Of a stretch of DNA of 43,786 nucleotides, positions 9,508 through 30,004 are shown piece by piece. Origin of the DNA: a virus. The DNA is taken from the IMG/VR virus record IMGVR_UViG_3300035698_020678, positions 1-43,786 of that record. One strand, given 5' to 3'. Numbering within the stretch: the first letter of the stretch is position 1; the number at the start of each line of letters is the position of its first letter. The notes under the pieces were generated by a model. That model saw only the letters and a list, made by a program, of their open reading frames with translations, was not told where the DNA came from and did no database searches. Position numbers and translations under genes: made by a program.

Positions 9508-10056
9508 TTAGATCACACAACTTTCACAGGAATCATCTTCTTCATTTGTAGGTGATATAAATTCTTTCGAGTTCAACGTGTCACTTGCTTCTACTCCCAT
9601 TTCGCCTTGTCCATCATGGGTTTGAAAATAGTAGAGTGTCTTCCCTCCAAATTTATACCACATTAAGAGATGCTGAAGCATCTCGGACATTGGAATCTTC
9701 TCATCATCATAATTCATTGGATTATATGATGTGTTGGTTGATATCGCCTGATCAATGTATTTTTGAAGAACAGCCATAATTTTTAGATAACCTATTGGTG
9801 ATTTCTGATCCCAAAGTAATTCATACTTATTCTTTAATCTTGGGTAACCTGGGACGACTTGCTTTAAGACACCATCTTTCGATTGTTTGATTGAAACGAA
9901 AGCCCGAGGAGGTTCTACGCCATTCGTGCTGTTGCTGATCTGTGCAGAAGTGTTATGACTGGTGCATCCATTTGATAATGCATAGGTTTCAGTATTTGTT
10001 GATACATCCCATGTATGCTCAACAGCAATTTGTCTACTGATTCTTCTTATTTTCAT
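9508..10056 (-). CDS. nrdA: Split intein C-fragment + C-terminal part of NrdA
   Basis: 182 aa. Residues 1-35 are an intein C-terminal fragment (MKIRRISRQIAVEHTWDVST ... SNGCTSHN) ending in the diagnostic His-Asn, followed by Thr as +1 extein residue. The rest is NrdA: TSAQISNSTNGVEPPRAFVS, the radical-path pair Tyr-Tyr in KTLYYFQT, and the C-terminal redox cysteines DDSCESCVI. The partner N-fragment is on the preceding gene, overlapping by 23 bases. Trans-splicing would join MALMPAE to TSAQIS, the normal NrdA sequence. No endonuclease domain is present. Confidence 0.9.
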   Translation of the reverse strand: MKIRRISRQIAVEHTWDVSTNTETYALSNGCTSHNTSAQISNSTNGVEPPRAFVSIKQSKDGVLKQVVPGYPRLKNKYELLWDQKSPIGYLKIMAVLQKYIDQAISTNTSYNPMNYDDEKIPMSEMLQHLLMWYKFGGKTLYYFQTHDGQGEMGVEASDTLNSKEFISPTNEEDDSCESCVI

Positions 10057-10987
10057 AGTTTAACTCCTCTAAAGTAATAACGTCATCATTTTCTTCTAGA
10101 TCTTTAACTTCAATCCAAACTTCTCTATTATCTCTGTTAACCAATAATTTATGATTATCAGTGAACCGATACACTTTCCCATCTTCAAATTCAATTTCTG
10201 TCACAGATTGTGGACCATTATAGTAACATTCATATGCGATGCTATCGCTGAGTGCGACTGGTTTAGTAAATGCGAATCTTTGACCTATCATTTGTTCTTC
10301 ATGAACTCGATCGATATCTATATTTCCTAAATCCTGGATAATTTCTGCAAGAGAAATTGGCGTCCCATCTGCTAATTTCATTTCATTATTAAGGGATTGA
10401 CATTCGGCCGGCATAAGCGCCATCAACGTAGAATTTCGAATACCATATTCTTTAAGATCCTTTCTCAAGGTTTTCCAATCCATTCTTTCTTGATGCTTAA
10501 TCAATTCATCCACATCTTTCTTGTAGGTATCAATAGGTAAGATTCCGTCATGATATCTAGTATGATCACTTTTGATACAGGCTCCTTTCTCTTTCGCAAG
10601 GGTCGAGCTCGCTTTAATCAGATAATATGACCATGCTTCTGCGTATTCATCCACTAAAGTCAGGTTAGGCTCTGAATAGGTGGAGTCGTTCTTTGCCAGA
10701 AAATAAGCAAGGTTGATTATGCCTATTCCCAAAGGCCGGTATTCCATACTGTGGAGCTCTGCTGCTAGAACAGGATATTTCTGATAGTCGAGCAGTGCGT
10801 CGAGGCCACGCACTGCCAGTTCACAAGGTCTCGCGAAATCATCTGGTGAACGAACCAAGCCCCAATTAATAGCGGATAAGGTGCACAATGCTATCCTAGA
10901 ATCTGTTGGCGTTCTAACCTCATCTACCATATATGCATATTCTTCAGTGTCATCACCAATTTCATCTACAATTTCATAATCAATCAT
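10034..10987 (-). CDS. nrdA: Middle part of NrdA + split intein N-fragment
   Basis: 317 aa. Residues 1-30 are a linker (MIDYEIVDEIGDDTEEYAYM...). NrdA then resumes at RIALCTLSAINW (second active-site Cys), through PLGIGIINLAYFLAK and LRNSTL-like GIRNSTLMALMPAE. At Cys (CQSLNNEMKLADGTPISLAEI) a split-intein N-fragment of about 120 aa begins. It has an intein block-B-like YRFTDNHKLLV and ends with WIEVKDLEENDDVITLEEL. It needs the C-fragment on the next gene to splice. Its own N-terminus starts de novo, so the junction to NrdA-a is not intein-mediated as far as I can see. Confidence 0.9.
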   Translation of the reverse strand: MIDYEIVDEIGDDTEEYAYMVDEVRTPTDSRIALCTLSAINWGLVRSPDDFARPCELAVRGLDALLDYQKYPVLAAELHSMEYRPLGIGIINLAYFLAKNDSTYSEPNLTLVDEYAEAWSYYLIKASSTLAKEKGACIKSDHTRYHDGILPIDTYKKDVDELIKHQERMDWKTLRKDLKEYGIRNSTLMALMPAECQSLNNEMKLADGTPISLAEIIQDLGNIDIDRVHEEQMIGQRFAFTKPVALSDSIAYECYYNGPQSVTEIEFEDGKVYRFTDNHKLLVNRDNREVWIEVKDLEENDDVITLEELNYENKKNQ

Positions 10988-10988
10988 T

Positions 10989-11102
10989 TTAGTTTTTCCT
11001 TATATGTTTGGTATAATTTCCAAGATCCCATGCTCTCTTGCAACATATACACGAAACTTTTTTCCCCTGTAGATGCACAGTACCGCCTGCATTTTTTGAC
11101 AT
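10989..11102 (-). CDS. 37-aa zinc-finger-like ORF at the NrdA break
   Basis: Frame from ATG 11102 to TAA 10989: MSKNAGGTVHLQGKKVSCIC, then CKRAWDLGNYTKHIRKN. C-x-C-C followed by a His suggests a small metal-binding finger, as seen at the ends of some homing endonucleases. It fills the gap between nrdA-a and nrdA-b, abutting the next ATG. It may be the relic of an endonuclease that split nrdA. Family not certain. Confidence 0.5.
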   Translation of the reverse strand: MSKNAGGTVHLQGKKVSCICCKRAWDLGNYTKHIRKN

Positions 11103-11107
11103 TTAGT

Positions 11108-12568
11108 CTATTTGCTATCAAGTGGGGAATAATTGTCCTTTTTCCGTTGTTTCTTCCATTCTTCTAAATCGGTTTTCTTAATCTTAATTATACGCTTTTC
11201 GGGTTGCCCGTCAGTGATGTTTTCCATTGGTCGAGTCGGTAGGGTAATTTCGGTACAAAGATTAGACATCCGAATAGGGGCCAGTTCAGGTTTGAACGAG
11301 CCGTGTTCATTGGCATGGTCGACGTTCATCAAATAAACTCGACCGGTGTTCTTTCTCTCTTCCATGAAGGCACTGAATAGATCCAGTGCCTTGATAGTCT
11401 TCTTGCGAATACGAGTATTTCTTTCGGCAGTCTCATAAATTTCTTTGAACTTTTCTTGATCTTCGAAGAATGCTTCGTATAATCCCGGGACGTCTGCTGG
11501 ACTAAAAAGGGTGATATCACCATTTTGTATCAGCCGCTCATAAAACAATTTACTTAATTGCACACCATAATCAATATGTCGGACTCTGTTATCATCTGTT
11601 CCCTTGTTGTTCTTGAGCACCAGAAGATCCTCTACTTCATAATGCCAGATCGGATAAAATAGAGTAGCAGCACCACCACGGACACCACCTTGCGAACATG
11701 ATTTCACTGCAGATTGAAACATTTTAAAGAAAGGAATGACGCCTGTGTGATAGACGTCGCCAGACCTAATCGGACTTCCCAGTGCTCTGATACTTCCTGC
11801 TCCGATTCCAATTCCAGCTTTTTGACTAACGTATTTGACAATAGAACTTGTTGCTGCATTGATTGAATCAAGCGAATCGGCTGTTTCGATTAACACACAC
11901 GAAGAAAACTGTCTTTGTGGAGTGCGTACTCCAGCCATAACGGGAGTCGGAAGACTAATCTGGAAGGTAGAAATAGCATCGTAATAATCTTTAACCCATC
12001 GAAGTCTTTCTTCTTTTGGGTAATTGCTAAACAGGCTCATTGCTATCAAAATATAAGCCATCTGTGGTGTTTCATAAATTTCCTTTGTTACCCGGTTTTG
12101 CACCAGGTATTTGCCACGAAACTGTTCCATCCCGGCAAAAGTAATGTCTTCATCTCTAGAGTGCTTGATGTATCGATTGATAATTTCATATTCTTCATCA
12201 CTGTAATCCTCAAGGAGAGAAGGATCGTAAAAACCTAATTCGATATTTTGCTTCACTAATTCTTGAACAGTACACGGATCGAACTGTCCATAGACCTGCT
12301 TCCGAAGATGGTAGGAGATTAATCTTCCGGCGACATATTGATAATTTGGTGTTTCGTCTGTGATTAGGTCCGCGGCAGCTTTGATAAGCGTTTCTTGAAC
12401 ATCCTGTGTTTCTATGTCTTGATAAAATTGAATATGAGATTTGATTTCAATTTCTGATGGGGAAACTCCTGTGATATTTTCACAGGACCAAAAGACTACT
12501 TTATGCAATTTTGCCAAATCTAATGGTTCTTTGGTTCCCTGTCTTTTGGTTACTTGAATCTCCGTCAT
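11108..12568 (-). CDS. nrdA: Ribonucleotide reductase class Ia large subunit, N-terminal part (NrdA-a)
   Basis: 486 aa. Starts like NrdA (VTKRQGTKEPLDLAKLHKVV, ATP-cone). It contains PTPVMAGVRTPQRQFSSCVL (first redox Cys), the specificity-loop region SGDVYHTGVIPFFKMFQ, KSCSQGGVRGGAATLFYP, and the thiyl site MSNLCTEI (Cys438, Glu440). It stops about 45 residues later (PTRPMENITDG plus a basic tail KIKKTDLEEWKKQRKKDN), where intact NrdA would continue to EIALCTLS. The remaining NrdA is on two further genes. Comparable breaks are known in Aeromonas phage Aeh1 NrdA. AGGAGA precedes the ATG. The start lies inside the upstream gene. Confidence 0.95.
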   Translation of the reverse strand: MTEIQVTKRQGTKEPLDLAKLHKVVFWSCENITGVSPSEIEIKSHIQFYQDIETQDVQETLIKAAADLITDETPNYQYVAGRLISYHLRKQVYGQFDPCTVQELVKQNIELGFYDPSLLEDYSDEEYEIINRYIKHSRDEDITFAGMEQFRGKYLVQNRVTKEIYETPQMAYILIAMSLFSNYPKEERLRWVKDYYDAISTFQISLPTPVMAGVRTPQRQFSSCVLIETADSLDSINAATSSIVKYVSQKAGIGIGAGSIRALGSPIRSGDVYHTGVIPFFKMFQSAVKSCSQGGVRGGAATLFYPIWHYEVEDLLVLKNNKGTDDNRVRHIDYGVQLSKLFYERLIQNGDITLFSPADVPGLYEAFFEDQEKFKEIYETAERNTRIRKKTIKALDLFSAFMEERKNTGRVYLMNVDHANEHGSFKPELAPIRMSNLCTEITLPTRPMENITDGQPEKRIIKIKKTDLEEWKKQRKKDNYSPLDSK

Positions 12569-28770: not shown

Positions 28771-29469
28771 TTATCTCCAGAGTAGATCGAAAGTTCCCTT
28801 CATTACCTGTTTGACTGTAGCGGTCTTACCAGAATTATGATCAGTGACAATATCATCTTGGAAACGATAGGTTCTGATTTTGTCACCTCTCATCCCCGAA
28901 CCTACCTGATTTCTTCGACTTTCTGCTGTTTTATCATTGATTTCTCCAGTCGTAGCTTGATCAAGTAATTTTTCCAAAGCTATTCTAGCATCACGTTGAT
29001 TATTTTGGCGACTTCGTCCTTGTCTGGTCTCCACTAAGCCTGTGGGTAAATGATACAATCGACAACATGATTGGGATTTATTTCGTTTTTGGCCACCTTT
29101 TCCGGTACCACTAAACCATTCGACATAAAAATCATGACTATCTCTTTTTTGATAGCGCGGATCGATCTCTATATCTTGTCCCATAACCGCCACCGTGACG
29201 GTACTGGTATGAACTCGATCTCTTTTTTCGGTGGGAGGAATCCGTTGGATTCGATGTCCACCTTTTTCCTGTTCTAATTTTTGGAGTTTTTTGCCAGTAA
29301 ATTCAATGGCAATCATAAAATGTCCCGAGCCAGAAGGACGCTCTTCAGTGACTCGAGAAGTTCAACCTAAACGAATTGCTAATTTGTGGTACGCTTGTGC
29401 GAGATCAGCTACGAATAATTGACTATCAGCTCCGCCTTCTGCGGAACGAATTTCAATGGTTCTTTTCAT
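28771..29469 (-). CDS. RF1-like peptide chain release factor with in-frame TGA
   Basis: Frame from ATG 29469 (GGAGG about 9 bases upstream) to 28771, 231 sense codons plus one TGA (29362-29364, codon 36). EIRSAEGGADSQLFVADLAQ, HRIQRIPPTEKRDRVHTSTV and the catalytic GGQ in GTGKGGQKRNKSQS show a class I release factor lacking the N-terminal domain. The recognition motif is PxT (PPT), as in RF1, so UAA/UAG reading is expected. TGA sits at a position where RF1 proteins usually have Trp (AIRLG-W). Readthrough as Trp, or a second start at 29316, would be needed. It lies just downstream of the tmRNA. Confidence 0.8.
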
Positions 29470-29494
29470 TTTCTTCATCCTCCGTTTAAGTTAG

Positions 29495-29850
29495 TGACGG
29501 TTTATTCTGTTGCCAGGAAAACCGTCAAAACCCCGAATAAATTCACTTAGGATTAAGCCGCTAGGCTAAATTCCATTTCGAAATTATCATTGCTCGCCGT
29601 TAGGTTTGCATTTATATTGTTTCTTCGCGTTAACCCAGCTTAGATCGGGAATACCTACACTTCACCTTTACTACACCTGTCGATCCTATTTCGATCCCGT
29701 ATTGCCATCATTCAGTGTTTCTAAGCATTACCTTAAAGGAGTCAGTCTCCTGTCTGGCTGTTGGTGGAATCGCGGGGTACCGCCCCCCGGTCCAGTGCGT
29801 CTATTCTGTTTAGTATCAAACAGTATTAAGTTTATTTATACACTCTTTAT
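29495..29850 (-). ncRNA. ssrA: Circularly permuted (two-piece) tmRNA
   Basis: On the minus strand the acceptor piece comes first, ending T-arm CGGGG/CCCCG, CGATTCC, A, CCA (29762-29764). After a 63-nt spacer comes the 5' end GGGATCG (29692-29698), which pairs with CGATTCC. The hallmark GGATCGACAGG and GGTGAAGTGTAGG follow. The tag ORF is 29553-29609, GCA...TAA, giving ANLTASNDNFEMEFSLAA, ending LAA and containing NDNF as in alphaproteobacterial tags. A GACGGTTT/AAACCGTC hairpin closes the coding piece. tmRNA frees stalled ribosomes and tags their products. Outer ends are estimates. The T-loop (GGCGGTA) is unusual. Confidence 0.88.
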
Positions 29851-29863
29851 GCGAAAAGTCAAA

Positions 29864-30004
29864 TTAAAAATTCATTCGCTGCTCTAACAACGGTCGAAGA
29901 CGAGATTCAAGGCTATCAAAGTTTAAACCATGCAATTCATCAAATTGGACAGGAGGTTCTCGCATGAATTCTAGCGCCGACGTCGGAATGTCCATCTGTT
30001 CCAT
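29864..30004 (-). CDS. Hypothetical 46-aa protein upstream of the tmRNA
   Basis: MEQMDIPTSALEFMREPPVQ ... RPLLEQRMNF-TAA looks coding. The best ribosome site (AAGGAG) instead serves an ATG at 30032 in another frame (MFNRSMTILNGTDG...), which stops at 29940 inside this ORF. Either a short leader couples to this gene, or an indel split one gene. It ends 14 bases before the tmRNA region and is probably co-transcribed with it. Confidence 0.5.
   Translation of the reverse strand: MEQMDIPTSALEFMREPPVQFDELHGLNFDSLESRLRPLLEQRMNF

Follow-up and report, generated by a model that had tools for sequence, protein, structure and literature searches.

An RF1-type release factor gene of phages with a conserved in-frame UGA, probably expressed by programmed readthrough

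The window analysed here, an IMG/VR virus record of 43.8 kb, carries a gene for a minimal class-I release factor of RF1 type, limited to domains 2-4, whose frame is interrupted at codon 36 by a UGA shared among divergent phages; genes of this kind occur in hundreds of uncultured phages. The evidence assembled below gives a probability of roughly 0.78 that the factor is made by programmed UGA readthrough coupled to UGA termination, and the residue inserted at the UGA is probably Trp. In-frame UGA readthrough was once proposed for release factor self-regulation, before RF2 genes were sequenced. According to a 2016 review, it occurs in no bacterial RF2 gene and an RF1 counterpart is unknown, the sole exception being that of a giant amoeba virus (PMC5009743). 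No description of a UGA-interrupted release factor family was found in the open-licence literature.

The gene, its surroundings and its predicted product

The window encodes a primase, a DnaB helicase, an exonuclease, a ribonucleotide reductase, tail proteins, a permuted tmRNA and at least 16 tRNAs. The large subunit of the ribonucleotide reductase (9508-12568, minus strand) is divided into three ORFs and looks like the site of an intein-type insertion, with conserved NrdA sequence resuming past a CTSHN-like end. Translation of the release factor gene (Table 1) meets a single TGA, beyond which the reading frame continues unchanged. A Shine-Dalgarno-like sequence precedes the gene in 76 of 85 homologues, and each of the 34 phage records searched holds exactly one gene with an RF-1 domain.

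Table 1. Features of the release factor locus and the phage tRNA-Trp in the window
Feature	Position	Strand	Remark
Minimal RF1-type release factor gene, domains 2-4 without domain 1	28771..29469	-	232 residues with the UGA decoded as sense
Segment of 35 codons ahead of the UGA, opening strand and helix of domain 2	29365..29469	-	dN/dS about 0.075 in relatives
In-frame UGA, codon 36, next base A; probably programmed	29362..29364	-	sequence conservation
Post-UGA segment, containing the codon-recognition loop and the GGQ domain, stop TAA	28771..29361	-	
Stem-loop predicted downstream of the UGA, -17.4 kcal/mol	29323..29358	-	covarying core, 29349-29356 paired with 29325-29332
PPT codon-recognition tripeptide (PxT, RF1 type)	29230..29238	-	
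GGQ catalytic tripeptide	29089..29097	-	
Shine-Dalgarno GGAGG, precedes ATG 29469	29479..29483	-	
Permuted alphaproteobacterial-type tmRNA	29493..29867	-	adjoins the release factor gene on its upstream side, same strand
tRNA-Trp(CCA) with U11-A24 and A27.C43 mismatch	4470..4541	-	candidate UGA reader

The phages nearest to the window by their primase, L002 and L003 at 62% identity, share the tmRNA-primase-helicase arrangement and lack the release factor gene at the corresponding place, so that the latter can be regarded as the occupant of a variable slot. In these two phages the permuted tmRNA is retained (L002:3156-3531 and L003:15-390, tag ANDNDFVMAAAA), and two small ORFs replace the release factor gene. 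A tmRNA near the release factor was found in the window as well as in L031, L032, L044, L052, L069, L075 and L089; this proximity fits a ribosome-rescue setting and proves nothing, and a functional tie between the two genes is something we only infer.

Domain searches matched the product to PCRF (PF03462, residues 4-93), which spans codon 36, and to RF-1 (PF00472, residues 111-211), which comes after it. The original observation of release factor homology on both sides of one TGA in a single frame is thereby borne out. Residues 4-229 align to positions 107-333 of the 347 in the prfA model, at 187.8 bits against an equivalog cut-off of 400; since the match begins at model position 107, domain 1 is missing, as it is in the relatives, and the upstream DNA where it would lie is taken by the tmRNA. 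The prfH model scores 45.9 bits against a cut-off of 166.65. Aligned RF1s of solved structure have Trp at the position of codon 36, in agreement with what had been stated for RF1 proteins, and the recognition loop reads PPT, the PxT form also noted at the outset, with a GGQ motif present as well. The SPF tripeptide of RF2 was not found in the window protein, where PPT stands in its place, while the RF2 controls carry SPF or SPY.

PPT together with Gln181, His193 and Thr194, all of which the window protein has, makes up an RF1 signature, and within the clade of UGA-interrupted genes P184 and T186 are each kept in 46 of 47 sequences and Q181 in all 47. As the loop is RF1-like, the factor is expected to act at UAA and UAG, but it should be noted that the recognition loop departs systematically from RF1 at D119, P185, R/K188-189 and V192. 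An AlphaFold2 model (mean pLDDT 88.8) resembles ribosome-bound RF1, with 9d7r as the best Foldseek match (E 3e-20). In this model, codon 36 falls between the first helix of domain 2 and the next strand; lying within domain 2, it leaves a 35-residue termination product that cannot be a release factor. Judged by predicted fold and loop, the protein is RF1-like in its working, and by the tests made it lies outside the prfA, prfB and prfH equivalogs.

Conservation, selection and RNA context of the UGA

TGA is an ordinary stop in these phages: it terminates 189 of the 574 ORFs (33%) that flank the release factor genes, accounts for 26-38% of stops among ORFs of at least 100 residues in the window and eight longer phage records, and ends 13 of 46 chosen genes in the window, where 134 TGG codons stand against the single internal TGA. 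The code is therefore standard, and phage-wide recoding of UGA (code 4) is rejected by stop usage.

A single-protein query recovered no close relatives from viral contigs; the family emerged only when the query was an alignment containing distant homologues of very large phages, and this yielded 364 relatives in viral contigs. Each scan considered the best 80 matches, and extra scans used other members as query. Every one of the best 80 of the 364, at loci 52-66% identical to the window, carries a single internal TGA, always at codon 36. Among the matches listed, TGA occupies codon 36 in 121 of 122 distinct viral homologue sequences, the sole exception (L103) having TGG there and TGA two codons further on, and this agreement goes far beyond chance. 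Many matches in a phage collection bear the labels Listeria, Staphylococcus or faecal phage; several of them resemble bacterial release factor genes and were left out. Across 105 distinct sequences, which fall into 89 clusters at 90% identity and 35 at 70% and of which six come from bacterial contigs, codon 36 is TGA without exception (105 of 105); at the two further conserved Trp columns the codon is TGG, in 104 of 104 and 102 of 102 cases. Since the UGA is shared while the other Trp codons remain TGG, decay, sequencing error and general recoding are excluded. The suggestion that the N-terminal part had been lost by TGG-to-TGA decay is thus abandoned: no relative in the clade has TGG alone, and by comparison of these sequences the UGA is not a product of decay. 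The outcome named beforehand as refuting readthrough, TGG in all relatives together with relaxed selection, is the reverse of what the comparison gave.

Distant relatives of the factor occur in phages of 635-735 kb (L004:1351-2049, L005:1318-1998, L007:1363-2037 and L009:1312-1992). These short RF1-type factors have TGA at other Trp positions, end in TAA and carry Gln in place of His193, which suggests that UGA is recoded as Trp (code 4) in those phages.

Selection was assessed in 110 close pairs, where median dN/dS is 0.075 before the UGA and 0.116 after it, values that indicate purifying rather than relaxed selection on both halves of the gene. In distant pairs, synonymous codon identity is higher at codons -1 to +5 than anywhere else in the gene (z 5.1 relative to all windows). 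Compared with synonymous-codon resampling, folding is most extreme at codons +1 to +14 (mean z -1.37, about -0.3 elsewhere), under a null that is imperfectly centred. The window hairpin has a folding z of -2.3.

Within the window's clade, the stem formed by columns 9-16 and 33-40, which begins 5 nt past the UGA, is paired in 96.3% of cells, at most 45% being paired in slid controls. Six cells are changed on both sides (1.5 expected), two pairs having been altered in this way (CG/AU/UA and GC/AU), and none of 500 shuffles scored as high on paired cells, double-changed cells or covariation. A hairpin can also be drawn in the larger clade, with 79% pairing and no excess of covariation, and RNAalifold returned no consensus structure for that clade; no Rfam family matched at the stem-loop. 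Covariation hence backs the predicted stem-loop in the window's clade only.

The base after the UGA is A in 85, G in 14, C in 6 and U in none of the 105 sequences, counts uncorrected for ancestry and coding constraint, and at genuine terminal TGAs of eight phage records U follows in 76 of 224 cases (34%). A U at position +4 is reported to lower readthrough (PMC5289835). As far as sequence comparison can speak, the conservation of the codon, the standard code, the stem-loop, the synonymous constraint and the purifying selection strongly support the original proposal that UGA readthrough may gate production of the release factor.

Bacterial relatives and known recoded release factors

A scan of bacterial genomes returned 50 related loci. 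Six have the UGA at the same codon (L170 in Thalassospira, L171, L172, L174 in Gemmobacter, L175 in Jiella, and L176). In 28 others the gene is interrupted at about the region of codon 36 by an RF2-type cassette consisting in most of SD-like CGGAGG or CGGGAG, three bases, CTT and TGA or TAG, after which the remainder lies in the +1 frame; by the tree labels, 22 of these genes have TGA and 6 have TAG. The hosts of this frameshift form are mostly Myxococcota (Nannocystis, Minicystis, Kofleriaceae), with Achromobacter and Novimethylophilus in addition, and three Myxococcales copies (L177-179) are without a stop. Bacteria that carry a gene of the family also have full-length RF1 and RF2, with only one further full-length match in the case of G043. 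At a strict cut-off, a census of the bacterial form gave no new members in 235 genomes of the Minicystis phylum or in 398 of the Novimethylophilus phylum.

A 96-row tree separates RF1 and RF2 as a distinct clade with support of 100/100 and sorts the UGA forms and frameshift forms into two large groups; one outgroup row (L264) was mis-extracted and has a very long branch, and L261, labelled RF1, groups with RF2, neither of which affects the conclusion. A CTT-TAG frameshift copy from a metagenome-assembled genome (L173) is nested in the UGA group, so the mechanism of the block has been switched and the block itself retained. The +1 frameshift cassette that bacterial members carry in the same region makes recoding a trait of the family. 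One protein family thus combines two kinds of recoding at the same block.

One close parallel is bacterial RF2 (prfB), in which an early UGA likewise blocks synthesis of a class-I factor unless termination there is slow, and the bacterial branch has the same type of cassette (SD-like, CTT, TGA, C). A survey of 12,753 genomes found prfB frameshifts and no convincing prfA frameshift (PMC12421855). The window and the phage clade differ from prfB in that the frame is kept (GGT-TGA, with no CTT slippery site), which speaks for readthrough instead of frameshifting, and in that the product resembles RF1 and has no domain 1. The class-I factor of Mimivirus and Megavirus is also a viral release factor that needs UGA readthrough, plus a frameshift (PMC3521657), but it belongs to amoeba viruses, is kin to eukaryotic and archaeal eRF1 and is not homologous to bacterial RF1. 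Bacterial RF1 itself shares the PxT loop, Gln181, GGQ and fold; the absence of domain 1, the sub-threshold prfA score and the fully supported separate RF1/RF2 clade set the window factor apart.

RF-H (PrfH) resembles it as a class-I, GGQ-bearing factor without domain 1 outside the RF1/RF2 pair, but its tripeptide is SXY and an RtcB-type gene lies upstream of it (PMC1586002, PMC9223846), whereas the window factor has PPT and is flanked by tmRNA and primase, the tmRNA being the upstream neighbour. The frameshift-type factor of Novimethylophilus is preceded by a gene (L199:714-2927, plus strand) with kinase, phosphoesterase and T4 Rnl1-type RNA ligase domains, an arrangement that recalls the RtcB-PrfH pairing; such an RNA-repair neighbour was seen at this locus only. 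Release factor genes are also known from huge phages, some of them distantly related to that of the window; that paper lists RF1/RF2 genes, in passages that mention no in-frame UGA (PMC7162821), and the phages with the UGA form differ in using the standard code.

Proposed mechanism and competing readings

We propose that ribosomes stalled at the UGA would meet one of two fates: termination by host RF2, leaving a useless 35-residue peptide, or near-cognate reading by a Trp-tRNA of host or phage, giving the full factor. A weak stop context and the stem-loop may help near-cognate reading, and leaky UGA with Trp insertion is reported from enteric bacteria (PMC7918605). The readthrough rate would be set by competition with RF2, so that output of the factor should rise when UGA termination is slow. 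The RF1-type factor could then take over UAA and free RF2 for UGA, closing a negative-feedback loop; such feedback through RF2 is what we infer. Alternatively, the product may be a fail-safe, synthesized if termination in the host is overloaded or comes under attack.

On a wider view, which we hold only tentatively and below even odds, the genes would represent a third family of class-I release factors of bacterial type, controlled by recoding and encoding fail-safe proteins whose synthesis depends on a failure of termination at UGA (or UAG), sensed by readthrough in phages and by frameshifting in cells, widespread in large phages, rare in bacteria and perhaps able to read more stops than RF1.

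Two competing explanations retain some weight, each of them unlikely. One supposes a factor of relaxed specificity that itself terminates at UGA (and UAG) and limits its own synthesis as a direct sensor, as in RF2. Simple self-limitation of the RF2 kind is not obvious, because an RF1-type loop should not read UGA, and PxT and Gln181, the signature for UAA and UAG, are kept. The systematic departures of the loop from RF1 nevertheless point in its favour, as does the mixed use of TGA and TAG by the frameshift branch, unexpected for a pure RF1 or a pure RF2; this gains some force from prfB, whose blocks are TGA in 98.6% and TAA in 1.4%, with TAG undetected (PMC12421855). The same mixture could instead reflect separate sensing of RF2 or RF1.

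The other explanation, doubtful to much the same degree, is a timing switch, in which a phage tRNA, usually tRNA-Trp(CCA), builds up during infection and decodes the UGA, so that the factor appears only late. A tRNA-Trp(CCA) is present in the window and in seven of the eight longer phage records, the remaining one being a fragment without tRNAs, but these phages carry 16-37 tRNAs and the association is thus not specific. The window tRNA-Trp combines U11-A24 with a 4-bp anticodon stem; in E. coli, a stem of this length raised readthrough at UGA about 2.5-fold (PMC13092985), and the tRNA-Trp of Mimivirus has a comparable Hirsh-like D-arm adenine (PMC3521657). Across related phages, U11-A24 occurs in 10 of 17 tRNA-Trp, and the 27-43 mismatch in 3 of 17 against 7% of other tRNAs; given this patchy distribution the features are suggestive only. 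With the mismatch not clearly enriched, a general role for a suppressor tRNA-Trp is unsupported. Strong suppression would moreover be costly, as flanking genes stop at TGA.

Another possible opal suppressor, which would suit a timing switch, is a 72-nt tRNA with a UCA anticodon about 1.6 kb from the UGA-interrupted gene of L063 (5307-5378, minus strand). Two other phages with an interrupted gene, in which TAG is still used as a stop, carry tRNAs with a CUA anticodon, called tRNA-Pyl by ARAGORN and possibly amber readers (L224:13418-13496, L224:17074-17148 and L226:14017-14091).

Much less probable is a scheme of two products, in which the UGA is a real stop and a downstream start yields a GGQ-only rescue factor. 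An ATG at 29316 opens an ORF of 181 residues in the window, but homologues show no conserved start codon downstream of the UGA, their first ATG lying mostly 117-150 codons past it, and exclusive initiation at 29316, once considered as an objection to readthrough, is accordingly unsupported. Strong purifying selection also acts on the pre-UGA segment, which supplies the opening strand and helix of domain 2.

Selenocysteine insertion is more improbable still. A conserved UGA with a 3' stem-loop resembles the bacterial SECIS arrangement, but SelA was found in none of five bacterial genomes with the UGA form, which argues against this explanation (the E. coli control was detected); the position is Trp in cellular RF1s, Cys variants were not seen, and the stem-loop is without an Rfam match. 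Pseudogene formation, sequencing error or phage-wide recoding would each place TGA at a Trp codon, and the distant 635-735 kb phages may use code 4, but the near-universal codon among the sequences listed, the TGG at other conserved Trp positions, the common use of TGA as a stop and the low dN/dS reduce these options to a negligible chance.

Returning to programmed readthrough, the family displays the in-frame design, fixed across divergent phages, beside bacterial cousins with the RF2 frameshift, and the old proposal of release factor self-regulation becomes testable. In standard-code phages, automated annotation probably splits or drops such a gene. The phage, judged from its sequence, appears to make the factor according to the host's capacity for UGA termination, which suggests that phages may monitor translation termination in the cells they infect.
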